Source: Myxococcales bacterium
GTDB taxonomy: Bacteria > Myxococcota_A > Polyangia > Nannocystales > Nannocystaceae
Length of the DNA stretch: 64,000 nt
Assembly: GCA_014240065.1 (NCBI GenBank)
Contig: JAAZXR010000001.1
Coordinates: forward strand, 1 to 64,000
Reading direction: 5' to 3'
The notes beneath the pieces are model-generated. The model ran no database searches. It had not been told where the DNA came from and saw only the letters and a program-made list of their open reading frames with translations. This document shows, piece after piece, positions 15,375 through 62,157 of this stretch. The translations under genes were made by a program, and so were the position numbers. Each line of letters opens with the position of its first letter. The first letter of the stretch is position 1.

Positions 15375-15394
15375 GCCGGCCCTTGCGGGCCGGC
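15375..15394 (-). terminator. Perfect 8-bp hairpin with GNRA-type loop downstream of flagellin B2
   Basis: GCCGGCCC (15375-15382) and GGGCCGGC (15387-15394) pair around a four-base loop that reads GCAA on the minus strand. Only a UUU follows, so it may be a secondary terminator for flagellin B2 or a structured RNA end. Confidence 0.45.
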
Positions 15395-15475
15395 ATGTAG
15401 GAGATGCGAATGGGGCGGGTCTTTGCAGGGATTTAACCCCAATCGCCATGTTGTGAGAGTGAAACTAGAGTGAAC

Positions 15476-15508
15476 GGGGCGGGGTAGCGTGGTCCGTTAC
15501 CCCGCCCC
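15476..15508 (-). terminator. Hairpin terminator after flagellin B2
   Basis: GGGGCGGGGTA (15476-15486) pairs with TACCCCGCCCC (15498-15508) 10 nt past the flagellin stop. No strong U-run follows on the minus strand. Confidence 0.65.
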
Positions 15509-15517
15509 GTGGATGCG

Positions 15518-16345
15518 CTATCCGAGGAGGGACAGCGCGATCTGCGGCGCCTGGTTCGCCTGCGCGAGCATGGATGCGCCGGCCTGCGACAAGATTTGAT
15601 TCTTGGTCAGTTGGGCGGTTTCGCTGGCGATGTCCACATCGACCACGCGAGAGTTCGCTGCCGAGAGGTTGGTGGCGTACGTGCTCAAGTTCGAGATCGT
15701 CACCGACAACCGGTTTTGCATCGCGCCGATGGTGCCACGTCGCGACGACACCGCCGAGATCGCGGCGTCGAGCGCCGAGATGGACGAGAGCGCTTTCGCC
15801 GAGGTCGAGACGCCGTTGTCGTCCACGGCGAACGCCGTGGTGGTCGCCGTCGCGATGGTGAGCGTGAGTCGGTCGTCCGCCGAGTTCCCTGAGCCAACCT
15901 GGAAATCAACCGGGGCGGCGGCCGAAGAGCCGTCGAGCAGGTTGATGCCGTTGAACTCCGTCGTCGCCGCAAGTCGGTCGATCTCGGACTTGAGCTGCGC
16001 GAACTCGTCGTCGAGATAGACGCGTTGACTGGCGTTCACCGTGCCGGTAGCGGACTGCACCGCCAGCTCCCTCATGCGGCCGAGCATGCCGCCGATCTCT
16101 TTAAGAGCGCCATCCGCGGTCTGGGCGAGACTCACGCCGTCGTTGGCGTTACGTTTCGCTTGGTTCAGGCCTCGGATCTTCGCCTTGAAGTCCTCCGAGA
16201 TCGCGAGTCCCGCGGCGTCGTCTGCCGCGCTGCGAACGCGGAGTCCCGAGGACAGACGAGAGAGGTTGTCAGAGAGCGCGGTAGAACTCTTCGAGAGGTT
16301 GTTCTGTGCGAGCATTGATGTGGTGTTTGTGAGTACTGAGATCAT
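15518..16345 (-). CDS. fliC: Flagellin B2
   Basis: A 275-residue flagellin of type B. Hallmarks are the MISVLTNTTSMLAQNNL start, a LSDNLSRLSSG segment, a C terminus ending ALSLLG, and a ribosome site AAGGAGG 8 nt before ATG. D0 and D1 helices at both ends are complete and the outer domains are missing. It is nearly identical to B4 (17783-18610) over most of its length. From RLSSGLRVRSAADDAAGLAI through QTADGALKEIGGML it also matches the A-type copies almost exactly. The upstream spacer carries a GTGAGA tandem repeat. Confidence 0.97.
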   Translation of the reverse strand: MISVLTNTTSMLAQNNLSKSSTALSDNLSRLSSGLRVRSAADDAAGLAISEDFKAKIRGLNQAKRNANDGVSLAQTADGALKEIGGMLGRMRELAVQSATGTVNASQRVYLDDEFAQLKSEIDRLAATTEFNGINLLDGSSAAAPVDFQVGSGNSADDRLTLTIATATTTAFAVDDNGVSTSAKALSSISALDAAISAVSSRRGTIGAMQNRLSVTISNLSTYATNLSAANSRVVDVDIASETAQLTKNQILSQAGASMLAQANQAPQIALSLLG

Positions 16346-16403
16346 GGTTTTTCCTCCTTGGAAAGGTCGCTCTTATGGATTGACCTGTGCCTCATTGAGG
16401 CGG

Positions 16404-16436
<33 letters not shown>

Positions 16437-16548
16437 CGGCAGTGTTCGTGGTCGGATGAGAAGGTGTGTTGTGGCGCCCTGTTTTTTTTTGTGTTGCCTT
16501 TTCGTTTCGGAAATTTGGTGGGATGTGCACCGATCCTTGGGAGAACTT

Positions 16549-16582
16549 GGGACCCCACTACCCGCCTGGATAGCGGGGTCCC
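16549..16582 (-). terminator. Hairpin terminator after flagellin A3
   Basis: GGGACCCC (16549-16556) pairs with GGGGTCCC (16575-16582), 14 nt after the A3 stop. The loop contains CCCGC/GCGGG-like bases. It is the same stem as after A5 and a mirror of that after A1. Confidence 0.65.
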
Positions 16583-16596
16583 ACGACTGTCCGTGA

Positions 16597-17421
16597 CTAC
16601 AGGAGCGCGAGCGCGATCTGTGGTCCCTGGTTTGCCTGCGCCAACATCGATGCACCAGCCTGGACGAGGATCTGCTGCTTGGTGAGCTGCGCAGTCTCGG
16701 AGGCCACATCTACGTCGACGATGCGAGAGTTCGCAGACGACAAGTTGGTGGAGTAGGTTTCCAGGTTAGACATGGTGACCGACAGTCGATTCTGCATAGC
16801 GCCGATGGTGCCGCGACGGGACGAGATGCTCCCGATAGCAGCGTCGAGCGCCGAGATCGCCGACAGCGCTGCCGCCGACGTCGATACAGAATCGCCTGAG
16901 ATCGACAGTGCAGTGGAGCTCGCACTCAACAACGACAGCGTGAGCTGGTCGTTACTTGAGTTGCCGGAGCCCACCTGGAAGGTGATGCCGCCGGCAGAAG
17001 CGCCGCTGATCAACGCGATACCGTTGTACTCCGTGGTCGTTGCGAGACGATCAATCTCACTTCGCAACTGCACGAACTCATCGTGGATATATCCACGCTG
17101 AGTGGTGTTAACGGTCCCCGTTGACGATTGCACAGCAAGCTCTCTCATACGATTGAGCATGCCGCCGATCTCTTTGAGTGCACCATCCGCGGTCTGAGCG
17201 AGACTGACGCCGTCGTTGGCGTTTCGTTGCGCTTGATCCAGACCTCGGATCTTCGCCTTGAAGTCCTCGGAAATCGCGAGTCCTGCTGCGTCATCTGCAG
17301 CTGAACGGACTCGGAGTCCCGAGGAGAGGCGAGCCATGCTGTCCGCCATTTGCCCGGACGCTTTCCCCAGGTTGGTCTGGGCAAGCATGGATGTTACATT
17401 GGTTAATACACTGATGGCCAT
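16597..17421 (-). CDS. fliC: Flagellin A3
   Basis: A 274-residue type-A flagellin (MAISVLTNVTSMLAQTNLGK, ending QIALALL). D0/D1 regions at both ends are intact. The central region is short and differs from A5 (SGASAGGITFQVGSGNSSND). The ribosome site AAAGGAAG and the three-hairpin leader are shared with A1 and A5. It differs from neighbours at IRGLDQAQRNAND, where other copies read IRGLNQAKRNAND. Flagellin is secreted through the type III flagellar export gate and polymerises beneath the FliD cap. Confidence 0.97.
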   Translation of the reverse strand: MAISVLTNVTSMLAQTNLGKASGQMADSMARLSSGLRVRSAADDAAGLAISEDFKAKIRGLDQAQRNANDGVSLAQTADGALKEIGGMLNRMRELAVQSSTGTVNTTQRGYIHDEFVQLRSEIDRLATTTEYNGIALISGASAGGITFQVGSGNSSNDQLTLSLLSASSTALSISGDSVSTSAAALSAISALDAAIGSISSRRGTIGAMQNRLSVTMSNLETYSTNLSSANSRIVDVDVASETAQLTKQQILVQAGASMLAQANQGPQIALALL

Positions 17422-17482
17422 TGTCGTTTCTTCCTTTCATGGATGGTCGCGCGAGCATTTTCTATTTTTCTAGCTCGCACGT

Positions 17483-17539
17483 GGGCATACGTGCCCGTGT
17501 GGGTTTCGCCAACCCGAGGCTTTAGGGACACAACGTCCC
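17483..17539 (-). promoter_or_regulatory. Conserved three-hairpin leader of flagellin A3
   Basis: The minus strand shows GGGAC...GTCCC (17525-17539), GGGTT...AACCC (17501-17515) and GGGC...GCCC (17483-17496). In hairpin 2 the closing pair is T-A here but C-G in A5 (GGGTC...GACCC), a compensatory change that supports pairing in RNA. Just upstream, GGAGGTATCCATGCA is conserved with A5. It could be a GG-N10-GC sigma-54-like element, or a ribosome site plus ATG for a short leader peptide. Confidence 0.6.
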
Positions 17540-17545
17540 CAAACT

Positions 17546-17750
17546 TGGTGCATGGATACCTCCGTGGTCGTAACCGTCGCAGACAGCACATCCATCGCGG
17601 CGCTTGCGGGCGCGTCGAGATGAGATGGCAGAATTTGAGAGTGCGATGCATGTCTGTCTATTGGTCGGTTACGAGTGAAAATGTTGAGAGAGTGTAGAGG
17701 GGATGTGTAGAGGGGCTGTGTAGAGAGGGTGTATGGAGAGGGTGTATGGA
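17546..17750. other. Spacer between flagellins A3 and B4
   Basis: No gene is supported. The right half is an imperfect G/A/T-rich repeat tract (units like GTGTAGAGGGG and GTGTATGGAGAGG, about 17691-17755). A segment TTCACTCGTA on the minus strand is shared with the spacer before A5 and might belong to a common promoter region. Confidence 0.4.
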
Positions 17751-17775
17751 GAGGCGGGGAGGGTGTCCCCGCCTC
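17751..17775 (-). terminator. Hairpin terminator after flagellin B4
   Basis: GAGGCGGGGA (17751-17760) pairs perfectly with TCCCCGCCTC (17766-17775) around a 5-nt loop, 8 nt after the B4 stop. No long U-run follows. Confidence 0.65.
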
Positions 17776-17782
17776 GGGGGGC

Positions 17783-18610
17783 TTATCCGAGCAGAGACAG
17801 CGCGATCTGTGGCGCCTGGTTCGCCTGGGCGAGCATGGACGCGCCAGCCTGCGTGAGGATCTGGTTCTTGGTGAGCAACGCGGTCTCGGACGCGACATCC
17901 ACGTCGACGACTCGAGAGTTCGCCGAGGAGAGGTTGGTCGCGTAGGTGCTGAGGTTCGAGATGGTCACCGAGAGTCGGTTTTGCATGGCGCCGACGGTGC
18001 CGCGTCGCGAGGAGATGGCTGTGATGGCCGCGTCGAGCGCCGAGATGGCCGAGAGCGCGGTCGCAGCGGTCGTGACGCCGTTGTCCAGAATGGACAAGGC
18101 CGTTGAATCGGTCGTCGCGATGGTGAGGGTCAAGCGATCGTTGGCGGAGTTGCCAGAGCCGACCTGAAAATCGACGGGGCTCGCCGAGGAGGTGCCGTCG
18201 AGCAGATTGATGCCGTTGAACTCGGTGGTCGCAGACAGACGATCGATCTCGGAGCGCAGCTGGGCAAACTCGTCTTGGAGGTAGCCTCGCTGCGTAGAGT
18301 TGACGGTTCCGGTCGCGGACTGGACCGCGAGCTCCCGCATTCGGCCGAGCATGGAGCCGATCTCCTTGAACGCTCCATCGGCGGTTTGGGCCAGGCTGAC
18401 ACCGTCATTCGCGTTGCGCTTCGCCTGGTTGAGGCCGCGGATTTTTGCTTTGAAATCCTCGGATATGGCGAGGCCTGCGGCGTCGTCGGCGGCGCTTCTT
18501 ACACGCAGTCCAGAAGAGAGTCTCGCGAGGTTGTCCGACAACGAGCTAGAACTCTTCGTGAGGTTGTTCTGGGCCAGCATGGACGTTGTGTTTGTTAGAA
18601 CAGAGATCAT
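17783..18610 (-). CDS. fliC: Flagellin B4
   Basis: A 275-residue type-B flagellin (MISVLTNTTSMLAQNNLTKS, ending QIALSLLG), nearly identical to B2. Notable differences are QTADGAFKEIGSML where B2 has QTADGALKEIGGML, and a different central segment (ATTDSTALSILDNGVTTAAT). The ribosome site is AAGGAGG before ATG. The D0/D1 helices needed for polymerisation are intact, so this should be a functional subunit and not a decayed copy. Confidence 0.97.
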   Translation of the reverse strand: MISVLTNTTSMLAQNNLTKSSSSLSDNLARLSSGLRVRSAADDAAGLAISEDFKAKIRGLNQAKRNANDGVSLAQTADGAFKEIGSMLGRMRELAVQSATGTVNSTQRGYLQDEFAQLRSEIDRLSATTEFNGINLLDGTSSASPVDFQVGSGNSANDRLTLTIATTDSTALSILDNGVTTAATALSAISALDAAITAISSRRGTVGAMQNRLSVTISNLSTYATNLSSANSRVVDVDVASETALLTKNQILTQAGASMLAQANQAPQIALSLLG

Positions 18611-18805
18611 GGGGTTGTTTCCTCCTTAGGATCGGTGTCTCGGGGTGGGAGACTGCTGCCTCCATAGAGACAGTGAATTGAGGGTGAGAGTGAGGACGGA
18701 GCACGAGCGTGAGGGAGTCATGTCAAAGACCGGGTGTGCCCGTAGGACGAAGGAATGAAGGGAGTGTGTTTCGATCTAGAAGTACGCGTGTTTCGTAAGG
18801 AAACT

Positions 18806-18839
18806 GGGACCCCACTACCCGCTGAGATAGCGGGGTCCC
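18806..18839 (-). terminator. Hairpin terminator after flagellin A5
   Basis: GGGACCCC (18806-18813) pairs with GGGGTCCC (18832-18839), 14 nt after the A5 stop. The repeat is nearly identical in sequence and position to the one after A3, showing that the duplicated unit includes the 3' region. Confidence 0.65.
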
Positions 18840-18853
18840 ACGACGGACCGTGA

Positions 18854-19684
18854 CTACAGGAGCGCGAGCGCGATCTGCGGTCCCTGGTTTGCCTGAGCCA
18901 GCATGGAGGCGCCGGCCTGAACGAGGATCTGCTGCTTCGTGAGCTGGGCAGTCTCTGAGGCGACATCCACATCGACGATGCGAGAGTTCGCAGCCTCGAG
19001 GTTCGTGGAGTAGGTTTCCAGGTTGGACATGGTCACCGACAATCGGTTCTGCATGGCACCAATGGTTCCGCGACGAGACGAGATGGTCCCGATCGCGGTG
19101 TCCAACGACGACATCGCGGCGAGTGCGGCGGTAGCCGTTCCGAGCGAGTTGCCCGAAATAGCGAGTCCCGCGGCTCCCGAGGAAACTGCCGAGAGCGTCA
19201 GCGTGAGCTGGTCGTTCGAGGAGTTTCCAGAGCCAACTTGGAACGTGATTCCCGTGTCCAAGTTGCCGTCGATGAGGTTAATACCGTTGAACTCAGTGGT
19301 GGCAGCGAGTCGATCAATCTCACTTCGCAGTTGGCCGAACTCATCGTCGAGGTAGCCGCGTTGCGTTGCGTTGACTGTGCCAGTTGCAGATTGTACGGCA
19401 AGCTCTCTCATGCGATTGAGCATGCCGCCGATCTCCTTCAGCGCACCATCCGCGGTCTGAGCGAGGCTGACGCCGTCGTTGGCGTTTCGCTTTGCTTGAT
19501 TCAGACCTCGAATCTTCGCCTTGAAGTCCTCGGAGATAGCGAGCCCAGCTGCATCGTCTGCAGAGGAGCGAACGCGGAGTCCTGAGGAGAGGCGAGCCAT
19601 GCTGTCCGACATTTGTCCGGATGCTCTTCCCAAGTTGGTTTGAGCAAGCATGGAGGTGACGTTGGTTAATACACTGATGGCCAT
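18854..19684 (-). CDS. fliC: Flagellin A5
   Basis: A 276-residue type-A flagellin (MAISVLTNVTSMLAQTNLGR, ending QIALALL). It matches A3 closely at both ends and differs mainly in the short central region (LDTGITFQVGSGNSSNDQLT then SGAAGLAISGNSLGTATAAL). It has the A-type ribosome site and three-hairpin leader. As with its neighbours, the missing D2/D3 domains mean a thin filament surface, which is also the region normally modified by Maf-type glycosyltransferases. Confidence 0.97.
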   Translation of the reverse strand: MAISVLTNVTSMLAQTNLGRASGQMSDSMARLSSGLRVRSSADDAAGLAISEDFKAKIRGLNQAKRNANDGVSLAQTADGALKEIGGMLNRMRELAVQSATGTVNATQRGYLDDEFGQLRSEIDRLAATTEFNGINLIDGNLDTGITFQVGSGNSSNDQLTLTLSAVSSGAAGLAISGNSLGTATAALAAMSSLDTAIGTISSRRGTIGAMQNRLSVTMSNLETYSTNLEAANSRIVDVDVASETAQLTKQQILVQAGASMLAQANQGPQIALALL

Positions 19685-19746
19685 TGTCGTTTCTTCCTTT
19701 CATGGATGGTCGTATTGTCTGCCCCATCGGGCTGCAGACAGTACGT

Positions 19747-19802
19747 GGGCGTACGTGCCCAGATGGGTCTAGCCGACCCAAGCTTTAGGGACACGATGTC
19801 CC
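19747..19802 (-). promoter_or_regulatory. Conserved three-hairpin leader of flagellin A5
   Basis: The minus strand shows GGGAC...GTCCC (19788-19802), GGGTC...GACCC (19765-19779) and GGGC...GCCC (19747-19760). The order and spacing match the A1 and A3 leaders. GGAGGTATCTATGCA lies just upstream, as in A3. Confidence 0.6.
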
Positions 19803-19803
19803 C

Positions 19804-19993
19804 AAATTCGTTGCATAGATACCTCCGTGGTGTAGTCATCACAGACAAACCAACATCACGGCGCTCGCGGGCGCAGAGAGTGAAGTGGCGGTGTGTGAGG
19901 GGGAGATGCATGGTTGCCTTGCTGACTACGAGTGAATGAGAGCGAGAGATTGAGAGAGTGTGGTTGAGTGAGAGTTAGAGGAGGGAGGTGGGA
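19804..19993. other. Spacer between flagellins A5 and B6
   Basis: No gene is supported. It contains a purine-rich tract of GAGAG/GTTGAG motifs at about 19931-19985, related to the stronger repeat upstream of B6. Confidence 0.4.
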
Positions 19994-20008
19994 GGGGGCG
20001 GCGCCCCC
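19994..20008 (-). terminator. Short GC hairpin after flagellin B6
   Basis: GGGGGC (19994-19999) pairs with GCCCCC (20003-20008), 15 nt after the B6 stop. It is small with a 3-nt loop, so a weaker terminator call than for the other copies. Confidence 0.4.
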
Positions 20009-20022
20009 CCCCGCTTGGTTGT

Positions 20023-20850
20023 CTATCCGAGGAGGGACAGAGCGATCTGCGGAGCCTGGTTGGCCTGCGCGAGCATGGCGGCGCCGGCTTGGGTGAGGAC
20101 CTGGCGCTTGGTGAGCTCCGAGGTCTCACGGGCGACATCCACGTCGACGATGCGAGAGTTCGCGGCCGAGAGGTTGGTCGTGTAGGTGTCGAGGTTGGAC
20201 ACGGTGACCCCCAGACGATTTTGCATGGCGCCGAGGGTGGATCGACGAGTCGAGACCTCGTTGATCGCAGAGTCGAGCAAACTGATCGCGGTGTCCGTGG
20301 AGGTCACCGAGCTCAGCGCAGAGGCCGCGGTCAAACCGAGCGCGGCGCTCGAGGACGTGGCGATGGAGACGGTGAGGCGATCGTTCGCGCTGGTGCCCAC
20401 GCCGATCTGGAAGACGATTCCAGCGGCTTGGTCGCCGTTGAGGACGTTGAGGCCGTTGAACTCGGTCGAGGCCGAGACCCGGTCAATCTCCGACTTGAGC
20501 TGCTGGAACTCATTGTTGATGTAGGAACGTTGGGTGCTGTTGACCGTGCCGTTCCGGGCTTGGATCGCCAGCTCTCGCATGCGATTCAGCATCGCGTGGG
20601 TCTCGCTGAGCGAGCCCTCCGCGGTCTGGATGAGTGAGACGCCGTCGTTCGCATTTCGTTTCGCCTGGGTGAGGCTGCGGATCCGAGCCTTAAAGGACTC
20701 AGAAATTCCAAGCCCAGCGGCGTCGTCGGCGGCGCTTCGAACGCGAAGCCCAGAGCTTAATTTGCTCAGGCTCGTGGCCAGGGCGGAGTTGTTGCGATTG
20801 AGGTTCGTTTGAGAAACAAGGGAGGTGGTGTTGGTGAGTACGCTAATCAT
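20023..20850 (-). CDS. fliC: Flagellin B6 (diverged)
   Basis: A 275-residue flagellin (MISVLTNTTSLVSQTNLNRN, ending QIALSLLG). It is type B by start, C terminus and position, but is the most diverged member of that class. It has ARIRSLTQAKRNANDGVSLI, QTAEGSLSETHAMLNRMREL and QARNGTVNSTQRSYINNEFQ, where B2 and B4 share another sequence. These features are closer to canonical proteobacterial flagellins, so B6 may represent the ancestral form before later copies were homogenised with type A. The ribosome site is GAAAGGAAA. Confidence 0.96.
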   Translation of the reverse strand: MISVLTNTTSLVSQTNLNRNNSALATSLSKLSSGLRVRSAADDAAGLGISESFKARIRSLTQAKRNANDGVSLIQTAEGSLSETHAMLNRMRELAIQARNGTVNSTQRSYINNEFQQLKSEIDRVSASTEFNGLNVLNGDQAAGIVFQIGVGTSANDRLTVSIATSSSAALGLTAASALSSVTSTDTAISLLDSAINEVSTRRSTLGAMQNRLGVTVSNLDTYTTNLSAANSRIVDVDVARETSELTKRQVLTQAGAAMLAQANQAPQIALSLLG

Positions 20851-21119
<269 letters not shown>

Positions 21120-21200
21120 CTAACGTTTCCGTTCTCCTCGACCTGATGCAGGGAGAGAGAAGGGGTAAACGTAGCTAGTGTGGGGTTCGTTGCGTGCCAT
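21120..21200 (-). CDS. Possible 26-residue peptide with strong ribosome site
   Basis: ATG 21200 is preceded by AAGGAGG at ideal spacing, and the ORF reads MARNEPHTSYVYPFSLPASG... to a TAG at 21120. No family is recognised. The context TCCAAGGAGGA is the same as that before the type-B flagellins, so this could be a leader peptide or the remnant of a lost flagellin 5' end. Confidence 0.3.
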   Translation of the reverse strand: MARNEPHTSYVYPFSLPASGRGERKR

Positions 21201-21611
21201 GTGGTATCCTCCTTGGATTCTCCCGCTGGGATTGGCGTCTCCGGCGGGGCGGGCGTCTTGCCCTGGCAGCGAGAGCGACATGCTCGGTGCTGCGTACACA
21301 AGGCCCATCGCCACGCCGGCCGAACCCTTGAGATTTTTTTCATAACTTTTTTGTATGTCCGGTTCAGCGAGGGGTCGGGGCGCTCGCGAAAGGACGCGCA
21401 GCAGCCCCTTTGCCGCCGCCAGTCCCATGGCGCAGACCCCGCTGTTCAGCTGATCGTGACGCTGCTCGTCGAGCGTGTGTCTTTGTGCTCGTGCTCGTGA
21501 GCGTTGGATCGGTGGTTTCGAGAGCAGGCGCTGTGAGCGTCACCCCGCTGCTGCGGGATCGTTGGTCGCCGCGGCGGGTGGCTCGTATCGGGCCGATCAC
21601 GGATCGCATAC
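21201..21611. other. Spacer between flagellin C7 and the B6 upstream region
   Basis: No confident gene on either strand. An A/T-rich run (ATTTTTTTCATAACTTTTTTG, 21332-21352) stands out against the GC-rich background and could be promoter-proximal. Frames covering the stretch have Arg/Ala/Ser-rich shadow composition. Confidence 0.35.
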
Positions 21612-21640
21612 AAAAAAGACGCCCCGGGGGAGGGGCGTCT
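21612..21640 (-). terminator. Rho-independent terminator of flagellin C7
   Basis: AGACGCCCC (21617-21625) and GGGGCGTCT (21632-21640) form a perfect 9-bp stem. On the minus strand it is followed directly by TTTTTTG. This is the clearest intrinsic terminator in the window. Confidence 0.9.
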
Positions 21641-21686
21641 GCAGGGAATTCATCAAGGAGATGAATGCTTGTTGTGAGAGAGAGAT

Positions 21687-22523
21687 CTAGCCGTTGAGTA
21701 GATTGAGCGCGAGCTGCGGGATCTGGTTGGCTTGGGCGAGGACGGAGACACCGGCTTGCATCAAGATGTTGTTCTTGGTGAGGTCTGCGGTCTCTTCGGC
21801 CACGTCGACGTCTCGAATCCGAGAGTTCGACGCGCTCACGTTGGCGTGTTGTGTGTTGATGTTGTTGATCGTCACCTGAAGGCGATTTTGCTTGGCGCCG
21901 AGGGTTGCTCGGCGAGCCGAGAGATCCTGGATGGCGGCGTCGATGACGCTCAATCCTGCTCGGGCGAGGGACGAAGTCGACACGGACACCGCTTCGATCC
22001 CGATGGCCGAGGGCGTGATCGTGGCGAGCGCCACGTTGATCTGCTGGGTGATGTCACCGGTCAGACCGACCTGGAAGGTGACGGGGTTGGCTGTGTTGTA
22101 CGTGCCGCTGAGCAGCGTGAGGCCGTTGTACTCCGCGGTTTCGCCGATACGGGTGATCTCGAGGCGAAGCTGGTCGAACTCCTCTTGAAGGAAGAGCTTT
22201 TGATCGTCGGAGACAGTGTCCGTTGCGCCCTGCATGGCGAGCTCACGCATCCGCATGAGGATCGACGTGATCTCCGACATTCCACCCTCTGCGGTCTGGA
22301 TGAGAGAAATTCCATCCATCGCGTTGCGTTTCGCTTGGGTCAAGGAGCGGAGGTCGGCGCGAAATTTCTCAGAGATGGCGAGGCCGGCGGCGTCGTCGCC
22401 TGCGCTGTTGATGCGCATACCGGAGGAGAGCTTCGTCATATTCTGAGCGAGGGCGTCGTTGGTTTTGTTCAGTGAATTGTTGGCTTGGATGGAGGCGATA
22501 TTTGTTCGAAGAGAGATACCCAT
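21687..22523 (-). CDS. fliC: Flagellin C7, first gene of the flagellin array
   Basis: A 278-residue flagellin (MGISLRTNIASIQANNSLNK, ending QLALNLLNG). It is clearly separate from types A and B: KLSSGMRINSAGDDAAGLAI, a MDGISLIQTAEGGMSEITSI segment, and NNINTQHANVSASNSRIRDV near the C terminus. D0 and D1 are intact and the variable region is short. It alone has a strong sigma-54 promoter (22680-22695) and a classical intrinsic terminator, so it is probably controlled separately and may be expressed before or differently from the A/B copies, for example as the hook-proximal subunit. The ribosome site is GCAGGAAAC. Confidence 0.97.
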   Translation of the reverse strand: MGISLRTNIASIQANNSLNKTNDALAQNMTKLSSGMRINSAGDDAAGLAISEKFRADLRSLTQAKRNAMDGISLIQTAEGGMSEITSILMRMRELAMQGATDTVSDDQKLFLQEEFDQLRLEITRIGETAEYNGLTLLSGTYNTANPVTFQVGLTGDITQQINVALATITPSAIGIEAVSVSTSSLARAGLSVIDAAIQDLSARRATLGAKQNRLQVTINNINTQHANVSASNSRIRDVDVAEETADLTKNNILMQAGVSVLAQANQIPQLALNLLNG

Positions 22524-43482: not shown

Positions 43483-44429
43483 TCACACGTGCGAGTGATC
43501 TCGATGGCGAGGGCTCCGCCGTCGGCGACGGGGAGACCATGAAATTTGGTGATGCCGGAAATTTTGACGGGGAGCTCCTCCGACGGGTGTCGCTCGAGTT
43601 TCAGGATTTGCCCCACTTCGAGCTGGGACAGCTTGCGCAGCCCAATGCTGGCGCGCCCGAGCTCGACCTCGAGGTCTACGGGCGTGCGGCGGACGATGTC
43701 GTGCATCACCGCGGAGCTCTTGGCGGCCTCCGTGGGCACGCCGAGCATGCCGCGCAGGGGCTCGAGCACCGAGCCGGGGAGCGCGATGGACATGCTCGCC
43801 AGGCGGTCATTGAGCTGCATGGTGATGGGGATGTGCAGCACGGTGACGTCTGGGGTGAAGCCCGTGACGAGGTCGAGGTTGCACTCGATGCAGCTGGTCT
43901 CGAACTCGAAGGTGCCGCGCGGCTCGAGGGTCTCGTTGAGCGCGTCCACCACCGGTTGCAGCGCGCGCTGGAGGACGCGGCGCTCGAGGGGGGTGAGGGG
44001 GCGATCGATCTCTTTCGAGTCCCCCTCCGTATCCCCACCGAACAGTCGATCGATCAGGGCAGAGGTCAAGCGCCGGTCGATGCAGAGGATGGAGGATCCT
44101 CGGACTTCGCCGTACACGCGGGTGGTCAAGCCGAGCATGCAGCCGGCGTGCTGCGCGACCCGCATGAGGCCGCGGCCGGTCATGATTTCGGGCTTCTCGT
44201 CTTGGACCTCGGCTTTCACCCTCAGCAGCGATGTGAGGACTTTGCGGAGGGTCTCGGCCAATCGCACGTATCCCACCGAAAGCGAGGGGATCATCATCTG
44301 GATGTATCGGTCGCTCGCGAGCAGGTCGATGGACTCTGCTTGGATCTGAAGCCGCGCCACGTCCGAAGACTCGAGGAGCTCTTCGACCTCGGTGGGGCTC
44401 AGGATCGGTACTCGGCTAAAATCGGTCAC
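43479..44429 (-). CDS. fliM: Flagellar switch protein FliM
   Basis: A 316-residue FliM. The N-terminal CheY-P binding peptide is recognisable as LSPTEVEELLES, the middle domain contains TGRGLMRVAQHAGCMLGLTT, and the C-terminal SPOA domain has RTPVDLEVELGRASIGLRKL. It overlaps both fliL and fliN by 4 nt. The retained CheY-binding motif implies that a chemotaxis pathway exists elsewhere in the genome. Confidence 0.96.
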   Translation of the reverse strand: MTDFSRVPILSPTEVEELLESSDVARLQIQAESIDLLASDRYIQMMIPSLSVGYVRLAETLRKVLTSLLRVKAEVQDEKPEIMTGRGLMRVAQHAGCMLGLTTRVYGEVRGSSILCIDRRLTSALIDRLFGGDTEGDSKEIDRPLTPLERRVLQRALQPVVDALNETLEPRGTFEFETSCIECNLDLVTGFTPDVTVLHIPITMQLNDRLASMSIALPGSVLEPLRGMLGVPTEAAKSSAVMHDIVRRTPVDLEVELGRASIGLRKLSQLEVGQILKLERHPSEELPVKISGITKFHGLPVADGGALAIEITRTCD

Positions 44430-44944
44430 TGGACGATGAAGGTGATCAGGTGGACGTCGACGGCGGCGTCGGTGCCGACCGCTTCGTTGAGGCGTTTGAG
44501 CAGCCGTCGCTTGATGGCCAGCTTGTTCTTGTTGCCCATGGTTTGACGGAAATTGAGGTCGGAGAGCTCACGGATGAAGTGATCGGTGATGATCGGCTTC
44601 GACTCCTCGACGACGCTGGTCATCTTGGCGTTGGTGAGCTGCACCGCGATTTGGATCTTGAGATAGCGGGCGCCCTCGGGCTCGTTGAGGTTCACCACCA
44701 TGGCGTCGAACGGCACGATGGGGCCCGCGCCGCTGGCGGGCACGCTGCCCCCGTCGCCCTCAGCGCCGTGGCCGTCGCCCTCAGCGCCGCCTTCGACGGC
44801 CGTGGCCGCTTTCGCCTCGCCGCTGTCTTTGCTCACGAAATATGCCGCAGCGCCGCCCACCACCAGCACGTTGGCCGCGATGATGATGAGGAGCAGTGGC
44901 TTTTTCTTCTTGCCGGTTTCTTCGTTGGACTCTTCTTCTGCCAT
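44426..44944 (-). CDS. fliL: Flagellar basal body protein FliL
   Basis: A 172-residue FliL: short cytoplasmic N terminus, one membrane helix at about 14-33 (LLLIIIAANVLVVGGAAAYF), a Gly/Glu-rich linker, and a periplasmic domain with VNLNEPEGARYLKIQIAVQL and FRQTMGNKNKLAIKRRLLKR. FliL forms stator-associated rings. It is the first gene of the long fliL-flgJ series and has a strong sigma-54 promoter at 44998-45013. Confidence 0.95.
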   Translation of the reverse strand: MAEEESNEETGKKKKPLLLIIIAANVLVVGGAAAYFVSKDSGEAKAATAVEGGAEGDGHGAEGDGGSVPASGAGPIVPFDAMVVNLNEPEGARYLKIQIAVQLTNAKMTSVVEESKPIITDHFIRELSDLNFRQTMGNKNKLAIKRRLLKRLNEAVGTDAAVDVHLITFIVQ

Positions 44945-47342: not shown

Positions 47343-48971
47343 TCAAACGACGATGTCGACGATTCCGTCCGGGGATAGAACCCTCGCGGTGCGGGGGGGC
47401 GAGGGGGTGGGTGCCACATCGGGACCAGGCGGTCGTGGAGCGTGGACGCGGTGGGCGGCGAGGTTCGCCTCGCGAATGGAGCGGTTTGGGCGCCGCTGCG
47501 GCGGGTCTTCGCCGCTCGCGTCGAGGTCGAAGCTGATGTCCTCGTCGATGTCTTGGAGCGCGCTCGCGATCCGTCGGCGCTCCGCTTGGAGGAGCTCCTC
47601 GGTCTGCCGCTCGCGGGGGCGGAGGACGACCTCCCACCCTTGCTCGGTGCGCTGCACCTTCATCTCAAAGTCGCCGAGCCCGTCGGCGGAGAAGTGGAGC
47701 GTCGCGTGGCCGTTGAAGCCGCGGATGCGGGCGGTTTGTTGGAGCACCTGCGCGCGGAGCTGCTCGACTGCGGCCGCGCGCGCCGTGGCGTCGGATCCCT
47801 GCGGGGCGGCGAGTTGGGAGACTGCGGCGGCACCCACCGGTGAGGAAGGGGCTGCCGCGGAGCCGAGGCTGCCCGCGGGCAATTCCATGGTGGAGGTGGA
47901 CAGCGCCGACGAGTTCGCGATGAGTCGCAAAGCATCGGCGCTAGGGAGGGGTTGGGGTCCGTTGGAGGACCCCGGGGGGGTGGGGGACCCCGGACTTACG
48001 CCGAGTCCGGAGTCTTTGGATGGTCGCGTGGAGTGGTCGGATTCGGAGGAAGAGGCGTACGTGGTCGAGGGAGTGTTTCGTGATTGAGAAGGATCGCGTG
48101 AGTGGTCGTGTGAGTGGTCGCGAGAGTGGTTCGAGTGGGTGGAATTCGTGGTGTTGGCCGCGCTGTTGGCCGCGGCACGGGGCGCGCGAGCGTGGCCGTC
48201 GGTGCCGGCCTGCTTCATGCTCTCAGCGGTGGGCTGTGCGGCGGCCGCGGCGGTCGCGGCGACATTGGAAGCTGGTTGGGAGGTGGATTCGCCCGGGGAG
48301 GCGGCGCGGCTGGAGATGGTCGCCTCTTGCAGGATCGCGGCGCGCAGCTGGGCTTGGGCTGCCTCGGGGGACTGTGGACCCGCGGCGGGGCGCCCGGTCT
48401 TGGTGGTGGCCTGAGGTTGCGCGCGGGCGCTCGTTCTTCGCGCCGCCTTTGCGCCGCGTGGTCGGGGGGAATCGGTGGCGCGGTCGCCGGAGCTCGCGCG
48501 CCGTGCCTCTGCGCCGTCTGCGGGCCGTGCATCCTGCTCGCGGACGCGCACGTCGGCGCCCCGGCGCTCCTGGGCCGCCGTCGAATCGCGTGGGTCGGAA
48601 GCGCGCCGAGGCGCGGGGACGCGGCCACGCCGCGAGGGGTCTGCGCTCCGCGGGGGAACGATCTTTGAGGGCGCTTCGCCGGCCAGCGCGGCAGACGAAG
48701 ATGTCGGTGTGCCCGGCCCTTCCTGGGGCGGGCTCGAGCCTTGGAGCATGGAGGTGTGGCGCTCGGCCGTCGACATCTCCGCCCACGACATGGGGCCACG
48801 GGCCGAGGTCGGTTCGGGGGAGCGACGGGGCGCGCTCATGGAACGATGGGCCAACATGCCGGCAAATTCATCCTGTGTCGCGTCGCCGTCGTGGTCGTGG
48901 TCGGCGCGGGCTTGAGGAGCTATCTGCGAGGTCGTTGGTCGTTCTTCAATATTCAGGTCGAAGGGCCTCAA
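47343..48971 (-). CDS. fliK: Hook-length control protein FliK
   Basis: A 542-residue protein. The first 400 residues are low-complexity (Ala/Ser/Pro/Thr, His/Ser-rich at about 270-300), as expected of the molecular-ruler part. The last 130 carry the FliK C-terminal substrate-switch domain (GHATLHFSADGLGDFEMKVQ, then EELLQAERRRIASALQDIDE). FliK senses hook length and flips FlhB specificity. It overlaps the MotE-like gene by 4 nt and precedes flgD. Confidence 0.88.
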   Translation of the reverse strand: MRPFDLNIEERPTTSQIAPQARADHDHDGDATQDEFAGMLAHRSMSAPRRSPEPTSARGPMSWAEMSTAERHTSMLQGSSPPQEGPGTPTSSSAALAGEAPSKIVPPRSADPSRRGRVPAPRRASDPRDSTAAQERRGADVRVREQDARPADGAEARRASSGDRATDSPRPRGAKAARRTSARAQPQATTKTGRPAAGPQSPEAAQAQLRAAILQEATISSRAASPGESTSQPASNVAATAAAAAQPTAESMKQAGTDGHARAPRAAANSAANTTNSTHSNHSRDHSHDHSRDPSQSRNTPSTTYASSSESDHSTRPSKDSGLGVSPGSPTPPGSSNGPQPLPSADALRLIANSSALSTSTMELPAGSLGSAAAPSSPVGAAAVSQLAAPQGSDATARAAAVEQLRAQVLQQTARIRGFNGHATLHFSADGLGDFEMKVQRTEQGWEVVLRPRERQTEELLQAERRRIASALQDIDEDISFDLDASGEDPPQRRPNRSIREANLAAHRVHAPRPPGPDVAPTPSPPRTARVLSPDGIVDIVV

Positions 48972-49759
48972 GGCGCCGTGACCTCCTCCGGGGCTGGCCG
49001 CTGTGCGTCCGTGCGCGCGGATGGGGGGGAGGCGGCGCCGTCCGGGGCTGCCGCTTCCCCGAGCGGGGAGAGCTTCTCGCGCTCCGGGACCGCTCGGGGA
49101 TCAAGATCGAGATACAGTTGACTCAGCTGGGCTGCGCGCTCCGTGGGCATGAGGGCCATGAGCTTCGCGGCCTTGCGCTGGCTCGTACGGGCGACGGCCA
49201 GCAAGATCCACTGGGCGTCCTCGTCGGACAGGCTCGCGACCATGTCGGAGCCGGCTTGGGGGGTCATGGAGGCGACGAGCTCCGCGAGGGATTCGATGCG
49301 CGCGTCGCGGCGCTGTCGGGCCACTTCGCCGACGCCAACCTGGTCCTGGAGGCGTTTTTCGAGGGCGTTGATGCGCGCGAGACGGGCTTCAAGTTCGCCC
49401 TCCAAGGTCTCGGCCGACCGCGACCGCGTCGCGAGGGAGAGCTCTCGCTCGTCGAGGGAGCGGCTGCGCTGGGTGATGCGCTCCATGATATCTCGTTCGG
49501 CGCCTGTGACCTCTGGTGGGCGTCGGCCTGGGTCGTTGGTTTCGAGGGTCAAGTCGCTCCCGTTCGCCGTGAGCGCCGTAGCGGCGGCCTCCGACTCGCT
49601 CGCTGAATCGGCGGCAGGGCTGGCCGCTTCCGTCGTCGGGGGCGCAGCGTCGGCGGCGTCATCCGCAGCGGCGGTCTTGTCCGTCGACGCGCGGACGTCG
49701 CTGTTGCAGCCTGCGAGCAGGAGCGCGGCGGCGAACGCGAGCGGCGCGGGGCGAGTCAT
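48968..49759 (-). CDS. MotE/MgtE-N-like protein with lipoprotein signal
   Basis: A 263-residue protein located between fliJ and fliK, where motE is often found. It begins with a lipoprotein signal (LLLAGC, Cys18), followed by an Ala/Ser/Asp linker, a coiled coil at about 90-145 (DIMERITQRSRSLDERELSL ... LEKRLQ), and a MgtE N-terminal-like helical domain at about 150-215 (VASMTPQAGSDMVASLSDED, ALMPTERAAQLSQLYLDLDP). MotE proteins assist stator or motor assembly. A lipobox would place this one in the periplasm on a lipid anchor, which is not the usual topology. It overlaps fliK and fliJ by 4 nt each. Confidence 0.72.
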   Translation of the reverse strand: MTRPAPLAFAAALLLAGCNSDVRASTDKTAAADDAADAAPPTTEAASPAADSASESEAAATALTANGSDLTLETNDPGRRPPEVTGAERDIMERITQRSRSLDERELSLATRSRSAETLEGELEARLARINALEKRLQDQVGVGEVARQRRDARIESLAELVASMTPQAGSDMVASLSDEDAQWILLAVARTSQRKAAKLMALMPTERAAQLSQLYLDLDPRAVPEREKLSPLGEAAAPDGAASPPSARTDAQRPAPEEVTAP

Positions 49760-50157
49760 CTTCGCCCTCCCACTGCGCCGGCGCGATCGTCCATCTCGCG
49801 CTGCTCGGTGCGGAGGGTGTGGGCGCGCGTCTCGTTGGCGGCCTTGGCGTGGAGTTTCTCCGCGCGGTCAAGGGCGACCCCCGCGGTCATGAGTTCGGAG
49901 CGACGGATGTCGAGGTCATTGGCGGCTTGCTCGACTTGCTTGGCGCGGTAGGCGATCACCTGTCCGAGCTCTTCAAGTTGCACCGGCGAGATCTCGGCGC
50001 CGGTGGTGAGCTCCGAGATCGCTCGAACCGCCTCGTCTCTCGCTTCCACGGCCGCGCAGTGGGCGAGCCTTGTGTCGTTGAACGAAGCCGCGGCGACATC
50101 ACGCTGCCTGGATCGCACATCGACCAATCGCTTCAGTTTGTTCGCTCGTTTTCGCAT
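49756..50157 (-). CDS. fliJ: Flagellar export protein FliJ
   Basis: A 133-residue, charged, entirely helical protein (MRKRANKLKRLVDVRSRQRD) with an antiparallel coiled-coil pattern. It follows fliI by 2 nt. FliJ is the stalk of the FliH-FliI ATPase and a chaperone escort. The sequence is poorly conserved in the family, so the call rests on fold and context. Confidence 0.85.
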   Translation of the reverse strand: MRKRANKLKRLVDVRSRQRDVAAASFNDTRLAHCAAVEARDEAVRAISELTTGAEISPVQLEELGQVIAYRAKQVEQAANDLDIRRSELMTAGVALDRAEKLHAKAANETRAHTLRTEQREMDDRAGAVGGRR

Positions 50158-55623: not shown

Positions 55624-56016
55624 TTATCTGCCGTCACGCGCGGCGTACTTGAGCATCCCGAGCTTGCGCGAGAGCAGCTCGTTGATGGCGGAGAAGCGGA
55701 GTTGGTTGGAGACCGTGCGGGCCATCTGTCTCTCCAAAGAGACAGAGTTGCCGTCTTGGTCGGGGGTCTCGTCGTCTGTCACGACGACCTCTTCTGAGAA
55801 GCGCATTTGGCCGACAGAGCGACCTTTAGCGTCCCGCATGGAGGAGAGCTCCTCTTTGAAGGTGATGTCGCGGCTGCGGTACCCTGGCGTGTCGATATTC
55901 GCCATATTCCCGGCGATGACCTGCTGGCGGCGTGCGTGGAAACCGAGAAATTTACTCAGCCGGTCCAGCCCCGCGAAGGGTGTGTTGGTGCCTGTTACTT
56001 TGATCGATTCACTCAT
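55624..56016 (-). CDS. flgB: Proximal rod protein FlgB
   Basis: A 130-residue FlgB: FHARRQQVIAGNMANIDTPG, YRSRDITFKEELSSMRDAKG and the C-terminal LERQMARTVSNQLRFSAINE. It overlaps the upstream TPR gene by 4 nt, so the two are translationally coupled and share its sigma-54 promoter. Confidence 0.96.
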   Translation of the reverse strand: MSESIKVTGTNTPFAGLDRLSKFLGFHARRQQVIAGNMANIDTPGYRSRDITFKEELSSMRDAKGRSVGQMRFSEEVVVTDDETPDQDGNSVSLERQMARTVSNQLRFSAINELLSRKLGMLKYAARDGR

Positions 56017-57815
56017 CCGTCAGCCTCTTTTCCTCTCAACGTGGCGCCGTTCTTGGATTCAAGCCCGAGGACAATTTGTTCGAGTCCTCGCTCGCGAAGT
56101 CGGGCCCGGGCGACGCGACCCCAGTGGGTGCTGTGGGTCGCCAATGTCCTCAAAATCTTCTCGCCGTCGCGACGATTCCCGTCCTCGATCTCTGCCATCG
56201 CGAGGACGTAGCCCATCTCGTCACGAAGCTCCGCGTCTGTGGAGCGCGCGATCCAGGCGCGCAGCATGGGGATCGCCTCGGAGCGCCGCCCAATGCGCGA
56301 GAGTCCCAGCGCGAGCGTCGGCGCTTGCTCGCCCTCGTCCTCGAAGCCGACGGCCTGCAGTCGCTCGAGCGCGCGCACGACCTGGGCCGGCGAGCCCCAG
56401 GCGGTCGCGAGCTCCGCGCCGGTGCCCAAGATGGCCTTTTGAAGGGTGGGAGTCCCGGCGATCTTGTGCATCGCGTCGAGCCGAGCGAGCGCCTCGTCGA
56501 TCCCCGCGGTGCGTCGGACGTTGACGCCAAAGTCTCGAATTTGAGCGCTGAGGCCGGGAGCGCGGGGGTGCTTCTCGATCTGGAAGGCGAGGACTTCATG
56601 GGCGTGCTTGGCTTCATCGAGCTGGAGGTAGGCTTCGATGAGCTGGCCGATGATGCGCGCCTCTTCGTAGCTCGTGGGGCGGCGGGACAGGGCGCCGCGC
56701 AACAGCTCGATGGACGGCCGGGCGAGCCCGACGCGCAGGTAGGCGGAGGCCGCCTCTTGCTGCAGCTGAGCTTTTTGGGGATGTTTGTCGAGCTTGTCCG
56801 CCCACGCCTCGAACTGCACGATCGTCTCGATGTCGTCGCCGAACAGCGCCGGGACCCCGATCGCGGCGGCGATGAGGCGGTCGTGCTCGATCCGCGCGTT
56901 GTCTTGCAGCATGTCCGGGAAGTGATCCATGGCGGGGAAGAAGTGCAGCCCACGGTCGGCCGCGTCGAGGAGGATGAACACCTCGGTGGAGCGCATCCAC
57001 GTGAACGCCTCGTAAAACGAGCGGTCACCGGAGGTCGCCGCGAGCACGACCTGCCCGGCCCTGGGCGGCTCGTCTTCCGTCACCGCTTCAAGGTGCAGGG
57101 CTGTGAGTCGGGCCAAGGCGGCGCCAGTGGATCGAGGATGATCGCGCGAGACGGATCGGAGGCGCTCGAGCGCCTCGTTCACGTGGCCGGAGATCACGAA
57201 GAGCTCCGCGAGGCGCAGGCGGGCGAGATCGCGGTGCTCGGGGTGCTCGGCGAGTTTCTCCCAGAGTCGCCGGGCCATGGCGAGGTCTCCGCGGCTCGTA
57301 GCGCGCTCGGCGTCCTCCCACAGCTCGAGGAGTGATCCGAGCTTCGCGGGCACGGGGATGGCCTGCTGCACGCGGGCAGCGAGCTTTCGCAGGCGGGTCT
57401 CCTCCGACTCGGGGCCGATGCGAATCCGGTAGGTGCGCTTTTTGAGTCGTGAGCTCCAGCGAAGCTCCGCGGCCCCGTGCACCATGCGAATGCGGACCCC
57501 GTCTTCGAGGGGCAGCACGCTGTACTCCAGCTCTTCGGGCAGCTTGCTCAGGTAGGCGTCCGCCTCTCGCGCGGGGATCGGGAGGTCAACCTCGAGTCCG
57601 CGGCGACTTGGGAGGCCCTTGGCCGTCGGGGAGAAGGCGGGTTTGCGGGGGAGTTTGAAGTCCAGCACGGCCTCGCGCGCGACGCCGTGGAGCGTCATAG
57701 AACCGCGATCGGCGACGCCGCGGGCGGGGGCCGCGTGAGCCACAGGACCGACCACGGCCCAAAAGGGGACCGCCAGTAGGGCACTTAGGAGCGTATTGCG
57801 TCGGAATCTCGACAC
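56013..57815 (-). CDS. Periplasmic TPR-rich protein, first gene of the flgB operon
   Basis: A 600-residue protein starting at GTG 57815 with a Sec signal peptide (MSRFRRNTLLSALLAVPFWA ... AHA). After a beta-rich N-terminal region (about 40-145; FSPTAKGLPSRRGLEVDLPI, EDGVRIRMVHGAAELRW), the rest is a string of helical TPR-like repeats: RGDLAMARRLWEKLAEHPEH, LRLAELFVISGHVNEALERL, SAYLRVGLARPSIELLRGAL, IGRRSEAIPMLRAWIAR. It should lie in the periplasm. Coupling to flgB implies a role in rod or motor assembly. It recalls PflA-like periplasmic TPR proteins of other flagellates only in general layout; no orthology is claimed. The start is nearly at the predicted transcription start. Confidence 0.75.
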   Translation of the reverse strand: MSRFRRNTLLSALLAVPFWAVVGPVAHAAPARGVADRGSMTLHGVAREAVLDFKLPRKPAFSPTAKGLPSRRGLEVDLPIPAREADAYLSKLPEELEYSVLPLEDGVRIRMVHGAAELRWSSRLKKRTYRIRIGPESEETRLRKLAARVQQAIPVPAKLGSLLELWEDAERATSRGDLAMARRLWEKLAEHPEHRDLARLRLAELFVISGHVNEALERLRSVSRDHPRSTGAALARLTALHLEAVTEDEPPRAGQVVLAATSGDRSFYEAFTWMRSTEVFILLDAADRGLHFFPAMDHFPDMLQDNARIEHDRLIAAAIGVPALFGDDIETIVQFEAWADKLDKHPQKAQLQQEAASAYLRVGLARPSIELLRGALSRRPTSYEEARIIGQLIEAYLQLDEAKHAHEVLAFQIEKHPRAPGLSAQIRDFGVNVRRTAGIDEALARLDAMHKIAGTPTLQKAILGTGAELATAWGSPAQVVRALERLQAVGFEDEGEQAPTLALGLSRIGRRSEAIPMLRAWIARSTDAELRDEMGYVLAMAEIEDGNRRDGEKILRTLATHSTHWGRVARARLRERGLEQIVLGLESKNGATLRGKEADG

Positions 57816-57828
57816 CGATGACTAACAG

Positions 57829-57844
57829 AGCAACGCCCGTGCCA
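57829..57844 (-). promoter_or_regulatory. Sigma-54 promoter of the TPR-flgB-flgE operon
   Basis: The minus strand reads TGGCACGGGCGTTGCT, a perfect TGGCACG-N4-TTGC match. Placing C of GC at -12 (57830) puts +1 at about 57818, only 3 nt before the GTG start codon. Confidence 0.92.
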
Positions 57845-57960: not shown

Positions 57961-59565
<1,605 letters not shown>

Positions 59566-59590
59566 TTCGGCGAATCGACCCACTGGCCCG

Positions 59591-59620: not shown

Positions 59621-59701
59621 CTGTTTGACACCTAAAATAGAGGCGCGATACCGAACGTTTTTCTGATCGTCTGCGTGGCCGGGTGTCTGTGTGGCCGCGT
59701 G

Positions 59702-60145
59702 TCAGCCTGACGTGGTGCCCGAACCGGTGCCGCTTCCGGTCTCGGTGCCGCTGTCGAACGTGTCGGTGCCGGTGTCGGTGCCGGTGTCGGTGCCGGTGTC
59801 GGTGCCGGTGGTGCCGGTGGTGCCGGTGTCGGTGCCGGTGTCGGTGTCGGTGCCGGTGTCGGTGCCGGTGTCGGTGCCGGTGTCGGTGCCGGTGGTGCCG
59901 GTGTCGGTGCCGGTGTCGGTGCCGGTGCCAGTGCCAGTGGTGCCGGTGTCGGTGCCAGTGCCAGTGCCGGTCATGCTGGTGCCGGTGGTGCCGGTGCCGG
60001 TGGTGCTGGTGGTCCCGACGCACACCCCGGCCACACACTCGCTGTCGGCGGGACAGTCGGAATTGCGGAGGCAGCCGTCGCCCGAGCACGCGAGCGTGAG
60101 GGCTGCGCTCGCCACGAAGGCCCCAATGTAGACGCTTGGTCGCAT
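59702..60145 (-). CDS. Repeat lipoprotein with Cys-rich head and Thr-Gly-Asp tail
   Basis: A 147-residue protein. A signal peptide ends at a lipobox-like TLAC (Cys20). A small Cys cluster ([18 protein letters not shown]) follows, of the kind common in secreted Myxococcota and Bradymonadia proteins, then about 100 residues of TGTDTG repeats. It is probably a surface-exposed, extended tail. The start lies 2 nt after the stop of the barrel gene and its ribosome site (AAGG) lies within that gene. No function is known. Confidence 0.7.
59761..60015. repeat. 12-bp/6-bp minisatellite encoding TGTDTG repeats
   Basis: Tandem units of GGTGTCGGTGCC and GGTGGTGCC variants (plus-strand reading) fill about 250 bp inside the lipoprotein gene. 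All units are multiples of three, so length changes keep the frame. Confidence 0.9.
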
Positions 60146-60707: not shown

Positions 60708-61976
60708 CTAGGCGAGCTGGCGAGCGGGCAGTTGGATGCGCCCCGTGGACAGCGCGCGCTTGATGGCGAGGTGGTGGAGGCGAGGGCGCTCCTCCGGGCT
60801 CGCGGAGATGCGCTGGAAGAAGGGATCGGTGTACGGGGTGGCGCGGGAGAACACCGCGCGCCCCTCGGGCGAGAGCACCTGCGTGAAGATGCCTCCCCCG
60901 GACCCCAGGTCCTCGGTGCGGAGGCGTACGACGGCGTGCTCAAGCTGCAGCCGCTCCTCGATGGCCTTCGACTCCTCGATGGCCTTCGACTCCTCGACGG
61001 CCGCCGTCGTCTGCGGGTCGGCCGCCGTCGGTGCGGTCGCGGCGGCGGCTTGGTCACCTCCGATGAGCAGACGGATGAGACGCTGTAGATCGGCCGCAGC
61101 GCCGTCTGCGGCGCCGCTCTCAAGCAGGGGCCGCATCTGTTGGATCGACTTGCGGGCCGCCGGGTCGTCGCGGACGCTCCCAACGAGGTCCACTTGGCTC
61201 CCGAGGAAGCGGCGGGCGAGCCCGCCGAGGGTACGCACGACCGTCTGCGCTTGGGCCGCCCGGGCGCGGTTGATGATCAACGGGATCCGCTTGGCCAGCG
61301 CGCGCTGCACCTCCGGGTCGCTCGGATCGAGGGTGCGATTGAGCGGCCCAACCATGGCCTCCCGCCGCTTGACCCCCGATCTCCGCTCCAGGCCGCGCAA
61401 GGTCACGGATTTGATGAACGAGAAGCAGTTTTGTATGGCCGTGGGCTCGGGCACCGTCACCACGAGCCCCATGTCGGCGGCGTTGAACAGATCCAGGGTG
61501 TTGAACGAGGTCCCTGCGCCGAGGTCGACGATGACGAGGCTCGCCGAAATCTTCCGCAGGTGCCGGATGAGTTTCTCTTTTTGCGAGTGGTGCGGGGCGG
61601 CGGCGGCCAGACTGTCCGCGTCGCCCGCGATGAGTGAGAGCCCCGGGACCCCGGTGTCCATGGCCAGATCGTCCAGCGTGGCGACATTTTTCCGGAAGAA
61701 GTCGCCCAAGGACACGGTCGGACGCGGGCAGCCGAGGAAAGTGTCGAGGTTCGCGCCGCCCAAATCGGCATCGAGCAGCACCACTCGGTACCCGGCTCGG
61801 GCCGCACCCACCGCCAAGTTTGTGGCGATGAAACTCTTTCCGATCCCACCTTTTCCCCCGCCGAGCGCCCAGATCGCCGGGCCCTCCGGTCGGTTCGCGG
61901 CCCCAATTGGGCCAGATCCGGGAGATGTGGCCCGTTGCTGCGCGGATCCGTCAGTTCGTTGGGGTGGGGGAGGCAT
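60708..61976 (-). CDS. Second MinD/ParA-like ATPase
   Basis: A 422-residue protein from ATG 61976. Residues about 35-300 form a MinD/ParA ATPase: [20 protein letters not shown] (deviant Walker A with Lys), [14 protein letters not shown], and [16 protein letters not shown]. This resembles FlhG at 34461-35384 but with a different C terminus of about 120 residues, Ala/Glu-rich, ending [20 protein letters not shown] and [15 protein letters not shown]. Such ATPases position structures on the membrane or pole. It starts the series with the barrel and lipoprotein genes and is divergent from the DUF4388-like gene. Whether it acts on flagella is unknown. Confidence 0.85.
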
Positions 61977-62157
61977 CCGTGCACAAGGGAAGCAAGCATG
62001 GTGCCACCTACACACGGCCGCATCTGGACGGTGCGCGTCGGGGGGCGGCCAGCATCGGTATGGCTCCTACGCTCAAGCCCGCGCGTGAGTACGTCGATAT
62101 TTTTGCTAGGCGCGCCATTTTCCTCTCACCACGAAGTTGCCCCGCCGACGATCGCTG

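Follow-up and report, generated by a model that had tools for sequence, protein, structure and literature searches.

Dimers of FlgY, together with PflA, form the 17 spokes that run from the MS-ring to the stators in the flagellar motor of Campylobacter jejuni, and motors of this organism that lack PflA carry no stators (PMC11870540). The N-terminal domain of PflA was named AMIN by Feng et al. for its likeness to PilQ, AMIN domains being peptidoglycan-binding modules, and a transmembrane motif and a mid-protein antiparallel β-pair are marks of PflB (PMC11870540). FliL of C. jejuni has been found in pulldowns of PflA (PMC12222027). Beyond Campylobacter, about 52% of flagellated species are reported to encode TPR proteins, mostly single-copy and PflA-like, close to their flagellar genes (PMC11870540), and in 2018 a TPR protein in a flagellar operon of Bdellovibrio bacteriovorus (WP_011165745.1) was noted, speculatively, as PflA-like (PMC5758724). 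Since such proteins have already been reported this widely, the kind of gene described here is known; its family and its setting are what we add.

Results

Position of the gene and signal peptide

The window, the whole 64-kb stretch of DNA that was analysed, comes from a 4.7-Mb draft genome in 235 contigs. On its minus strand, an open reading frame of 600 codons (56013..57815, stop included in the coordinates) runs from a GTG start at 57815 and encodes a PflA-like TPR protein of 600 residues; the flgB operon begins with this gene. Its base composition by codon position (GC1/2/3 of 0.73/0.48/0.83) resembles that of coding DNA, and the frame fits without conflict between flgB and a sigma-54 activator gene. 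The ATG of flgB (55624..56016, minus strand; Flg_bb_rod match) shares 4 nt with the end of the TPR gene, and the same strand continues with flgC, fliE, fliF, fliG, fliH, fliI, fliJ, flgY, fliK, flgD, and flgE; fliL, fliM, flhF, a MinD/FlhG-like gene, and a FliA-type sigma factor lie farther downstream. The original prediction of a 600-residue signal-peptide TPR protein that opens the operon and overlaps flgB by 4 nt is thus confirmed by the reading frame, Pfam, the structure model, and synteny.

Residues 1–28 (57732..57815, minus strand) form a signal peptide predicted from sequence and hydropathy, with a basic RFRR followed by the hydrophobic stretch LLSALLAVPFWAVVGPVA and then AHA, after which cleavage is taken to occur. 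The mean hydropathy over 12 residues reaches 2.1 at this N terminus, homologs from other families have signal peptide-like N termini too, and there is no transmembrane helix apart from the signal peptide. Judged by its predicted signal peptide, the TPR protein is periplasmic by design.

Two other stretches of the window are also of note. Seven tandem flagellin-like genes of near-equal length (274–278 amino acids) occupy 13876–22523 on the minus strand, and the region 59691–60131 codes for low-complexity Thr/Gly/Asp repeats (TGTDTGTD) that close a putative secreted protein; at one homolog locus (L177), TD repeats resembling these are found upstream of the TPR gene.

Promoter

An exact −24/−12 sigma-54 promoter, TGGCACGGGCGTTGCT (57829..57844, minus strand), is located 14 nt before the GTG of the TPR gene. 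The exact pattern was found twice in the 64-kb window against 0.07 expected. Outside the window, a comparable site is present at 12 of the 13 homolog loci examined, L096 being the sole locus without one. Its distance to the start codon is 13–15 nt at 11 of these loci (f1, the window's family, and f8) and 4 nt at the f10 locus, where the start was chosen arbitrarily; homolog start codons had been picked before the promoter was noticed, L056 excepted. Because the TPR gene lies between promoter and flgB, its predicted expression is that of a basal-body gene, with the rod and MS-ring genes. The sigma-54-dependent response regulator encoded upstream (57961..59583, minus strand) probably activates the operon. 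Where the TPR gene is missing, many genomes have a comparable sigma-54 site immediately ahead of flgB.

The 13–15 nt that separate promoter and start codon in most homologs would leave a leader of only a few nucleotides, that is, a near-leaderless mRNA. The second exact site (61991–62006, minus strand) falls within the predicted 5′ end of a MinD/ParA-like open reading frame (60708–62015). Translation of that frame therefore probably begins farther downstream, and this gene may be part of the flagellar regulon.

Sequence and structure comparisons

At the level of sequence, the protein has only weak matches to TPRs. Pfam TPR_19 matches above its cut-off (E = 6e-6) and TPR_5 weakly, NCBIfam returns weak matches to general envelope TPR proteins (LapB/BamD/YbgF-like), sequence searches of the PDB return generic TPRs only, PADLOC has no matches, and no sequence-level match to PflA was found. 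A scan of genome contigs with the single sequence recovered no relative; a scan with an alignment recovered seven, from metagenome genomes labeled Myxococcales, Nannocystaceae, or "Deltaproteobacteria." The source is accordingly taken to be a member of Myxococcota, most likely Nannocystaceae-like.

The AlphaFold2 model of the whole protein, built from eight sequences, has a mean pLDDT of 84 and a pTM of 0.71, with residues 1–45 of low confidence. It predicts an N-terminal β-sandwich, possibly AMIN/PilQ-like, at residues 46–136 (57408..57680, minus strand) and an α-solenoid of about 11 TPR-like hairpins and a long C-terminal helix at residues 160–599 (56019..57338, minus strand), where Pfam places TPRs as well. 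About 10 loop residues separate helix 138–149 from the first TPR helix at 160. A mid-protein antiparallel β-pair was not seen in the model.

When the whole model was compared by Foldseek with 350,542 PDB chains, 9hmf_K ranked first (E = 2.1e-7 over 784 alignment columns), ahead of generic TPR solenoids starting at E = 1.2e-5, a rank to be read with caution, since a query with an extended TPR solenoid may draw long TPR targets. Chain K is PflA of the C. jejuni periplasmic scaffold as matched by length: its 773 residues equal PflA 16–788, and the modeled PflB spans 113–820. Rigid-body overlay on 9hmf_K is poor (TM-scores low, 0.21), as would be anticipated for superhelices that differ in curvature and a target that is an α-carbon trace. 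VIA on the whole model gave 50 rows of generic TPR proteins, BamD and YbgF included and PflA not among them; a search that lists generic TPRs does not discriminate, and the absence of PflA from it is no counter-evidence.

The N-terminal domain, folded alone from 14 sequences, reached a pLDDT of 91.8. PilQ is an outer-membrane secretin without TPRs. Its B2/AMIN domain (PDB 4AV2 and 4AQZ) occupies the top two VIA rows for the isolated domain and is its best structural match, with middling scores that concern this domain only (Z of 6.3 and 6.0, rmsd 3.4; unrelated rows at or below 5.1). By Foldseek, 9hmf_K and PilQ are both among weak matches to this domain that are not significant (E = 0.56–0.67).

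Distribution in relatives

Within the window's family, the TPR gene is present in 8 of the 12 flagellated genomes, identified by their rod genes, and in none of the 17 non-flagellated ones (Fisher p = 1e-4). The four flagellated genomes without it are G001 and G004, both incomplete, and G010 and G018, where a sigma-54 activator precedes flgB instead. That the gene would accompany flgB in close relatives therefore holds for most but not all of them: of the 10 family genomes in which flgB can be recognized, 8 have it before flgB, and G010 and G018 do not have it. G010 also has no gene in the flgY slot.

Homologs precede flgB in three further families. Profile A1 finds a co-linear one in f19 (G082, E = 8e-11) and another in f10 (G037, E = 1e-8). 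In f8, a single sequence matches A1 at an E of only 0.014, whereas the group (G035, G119, G120, and G125, with the gene directly before flgB) matches the enlarged profile over 492 columns at 2.5e-10; in another f8 genome, G121, an open reading frame with the same kind of N terminus precedes flgB. As in the window, the gene overlaps or abuts flgB in f10 and f8. Whole-protein homologs directly before flgB in eight family genomes and three further families make the arrangement more than chance. Many other flagellated families of the class do not have this gene in the slot before flgB. Weak profile matches across the class (E of 1e-3 to 1e-8) were left out of these counts because they are mostly short stretches of proteins of about 300 residues or of much longer ones.

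Family f4 encodes signal-peptide TPR-like proteins at flgB or one gene before it (L128 1373–2737, L043 2128–3519, and L048 2389–3903). The profile link to the window's TPR family (E = 0.06) does not connect them, and they may be a separate solution, a second and independent type of spoke, or too diverged.

FlgY and its co-occurrence with the TPR gene

The proposed partner of the TPR protein is encoded between fliJ and fliK at 48968..49759 (minus strand). Its product, which has a lipobox, is by sequence the E-ring protein FlgY/FlbB, with a match to NCBIfam collar_FlbB that lies below the curated cut-off (E = 5.9e-9) and a weak one to MgtE_N (E = 0.013). Proteins of this kind have an MgtE_N/ARM-like C-terminal domain, are encoded beside fliJ/fliK, and are secreted or anchored in the membrane. 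The adjacent fliJ (49756..50157, minus strand; FliJ E = 2.7e-7) serves as a synteny marker for flgY, and fliL, for a stator-associated protein, is at 44426..44944 on the minus strand.

The FlgY profile matched 11 of 317 genomes of the class, all in f1 and f8, both of which are families with the TPR gene. Nine of the 11 have a TPR gene before flgB (G000, G002, G005, G019, G021, G024, G119, G120, and G121), and the other two, G001 and G124, cannot be judged because the genome is incomplete or the contig stops. Judged by gene order, the slot between fliJ and fliK is filled by a FlgY-like gene in the TPR-bearing G037 (f10) and G120 and in G047 (f4, with the unlinked TPR protein), and it is empty in G010, G044, G268, and G313, which have no TPR gene. 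In G011 and G014, where the contigs with flagellar genes break off early, no FlgY was found. Thus flgY and the TPR gene, as read from sequence, tend to be present or absent together, a co-occurrence that comes from a small number of loci, outside f19, whose gene order was read. The FlgY proteins of f4 and f10 are diverged and escape the profile. Joint presence and absence is expected if both proteins build one structure.

The FlgY/FlbB homologs of f1, f8, and f10 (48968–49759 on the minus strand of the window; L156–L161, L178, and L180) carry lipoboxes such as LLLAGC, VAPGC, LLIGC, and LVSLGC. The E-ring protein of these families is predicted to be a lipoprotein, whereas the reviews consulted describe versions with a signal peptide or a transmembrane segment. 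In G037 (L178 5420–6943, minus strand), FliJ and FlgY share one uninterrupted frame with the lipobox midway along it, which reflects either gene fusion or an error in the sequence.

Discussion

We propose that the TPR protein serves as a spoke of the PflA type in the scaffold of the flagellar motor, extending from a FlgY E-ring toward the stators, and we put the probability of this reading at roughly 0.78. It draws on the place of the gene in the flgB operon and its promoter, the co-occurrence with flagella and FlgY, the first rank of PflA in the fold search, and, more weakly, the likeness of the N-terminal domain to PilQ AMIN. This fold rank, the N-terminal domain, and the co-occurrence lend good support to the suggestion that the locus encodes a periplasmic TPR scaffold of the motor, akin to those known from Epsilonproteobacteria.

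In the mechanism that we envisage, the sigma-54 promoter would drive the TPR protein together with the rod and MS-ring genes, and the signal peptide would secrete it. The TPR superhelix would then radiate toward the stators, starting at the E-ring that FlgY forms around the MS-ring, with the AMIN-like β-sandwich facing outward and touching peptidoglycan, stator-side proteins such as FliL and MotB, or both. So placed, the protein could position or stabilize stator units. Binding to FlgY, the ring geometry, and the effect on stators are what we infer for the protein.

The tight coupling to flgB, with the gene at the head of the rod operon and a 4-nt overlap, would be explained if the protein were a periplasmic factor for assembly of the rod or P-ring, its TPR solenoid acting as a chaperone or as a peptidoglycan-gap guide for FlgB/FlgC export and rod assembly. 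The coupling is conserved in f1, f10, and f8, and AMIN domains bind peptidoglycan (PMC11870540). We nonetheless consider this unlikely, for fold and domain order match PflA, the gene is tracked by FlgY and not by a rod gene, and the many genomes with a sigma-54 site directly before flgB indicate that rods form without the TPR protein. The original prediction had allowed for a rod scaffold, which finds no support beyond the flgB coupling; PflA relatives act on the stator and E-ring side. A collar or rim protein like PflB, MotC, MotK, or FlcB, which would encircle the stators in the manner of Borrelia collars or alphaproteobacterial MotC, seems a shade less likely still. Such proteins are TPR-rich too (PMC13023049), their E-ring partner is FlgY/FlbB/MotE, and the window's FlgY scores with collar_FlbB. 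However, the PflB marks, transmembrane helix and mid-protein β-pair, are absent from the TPR protein, and an N-terminal AMIN-like domain, which its β-sandwich may be, is a mark of PflA. Least probable is a general envelope TPR protein (LapB/BamD/YbgF-like) that sits in a flagellar operon by chance: the generic VIA rows, BamD and YbgF among them, and the weak NCBIfam matches would fit, but the gene is absent from 17 of 17 non-flagellated family genomes, and its operon position and sigma-54 promoter are conserved over several families.

The near absence of the linker that wraps PflB makes a true PflA ortholog with a PflB rim less likely and does not lower the case for a spoke. Together, the shorter solenoid, a linker too short to wrap PflB, and no PflB-like gene within the window suggest a scaffold made of spokes alone, possibly one that serves a narrower ring of stators. 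More tentatively, and in our view less likely than not, these Myxococcota may have a minimal PflB-less scaffold in which a lipid-anchored FlgY E-ring and a short AMIN-TPR spoke alone position the stators, gained or lost as one module; it may preserve a spoke-only state from which the Campylobacter disks grew.

The locus offers a concrete gene for the E-ring/spoke module in Myxococcota, a phylum unnamed in the main text of the cited module papers, and an unstudied, simpler version, divergent in sequence, of the torque-supporting scaffold known from Campylobacter. With its short spoke and no PflB seen, such a scaffold is a simple setting in which to ask how high-torque motors with fixed stators arose. 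It also suggests how TPR spoke candidates may be recognized where sequence search fails, by looking for the gene that immediately follows the sigma-54 promoter at the head of a flgB operon.

Among described systems, the Bdellovibrio protein resembles the window's protein, by description, as a TPR protein of a flagellar operon in a (then) deltaproteobacterium, but it has about 1000 residues of TPRs after a signal sequence and a transmembrane helix. MotC, MotK, CC_2058, and FlcB of alphaproteobacteria and Borrelia are likewise comparable by description, as TPR-rich periplasmic partners of FlgY/MotE/FlbB (PMC13023049). The label "lineage-specific" holds for the sequence family, so far confined to part of the class, and not for the kind of protein, which is widespread (PMC11870540, PMC5758724). 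New here are the Myxococcota family, its place at the head of a flgB operon with a sigma-54 promoter, and its tendency to be present or absent along with FlgY. The closest counterpart is PflA of C. jejuni (9HMF chain K; PMC12222027, PMC11870540). PflA is longer (788 versus 600 residues) and without sequence similarity to the window's protein, has 16–17 hairpins rather than about 11, and wraps PflB with a linker of 38 residues (126–163) where the window's protein has about 10; unlike PflA, the latter is encoded by the first gene of the flgB operon, with no PflB-like gene seen in the window. Both proteins nevertheless combine a signal peptide, an N-terminal β-sandwich (tentatively AMIN-like in the window's protein), and a C-terminal TPR superhelix; both are restricted to flagellated bacteria, and in each case the genome also encodes FlgY.
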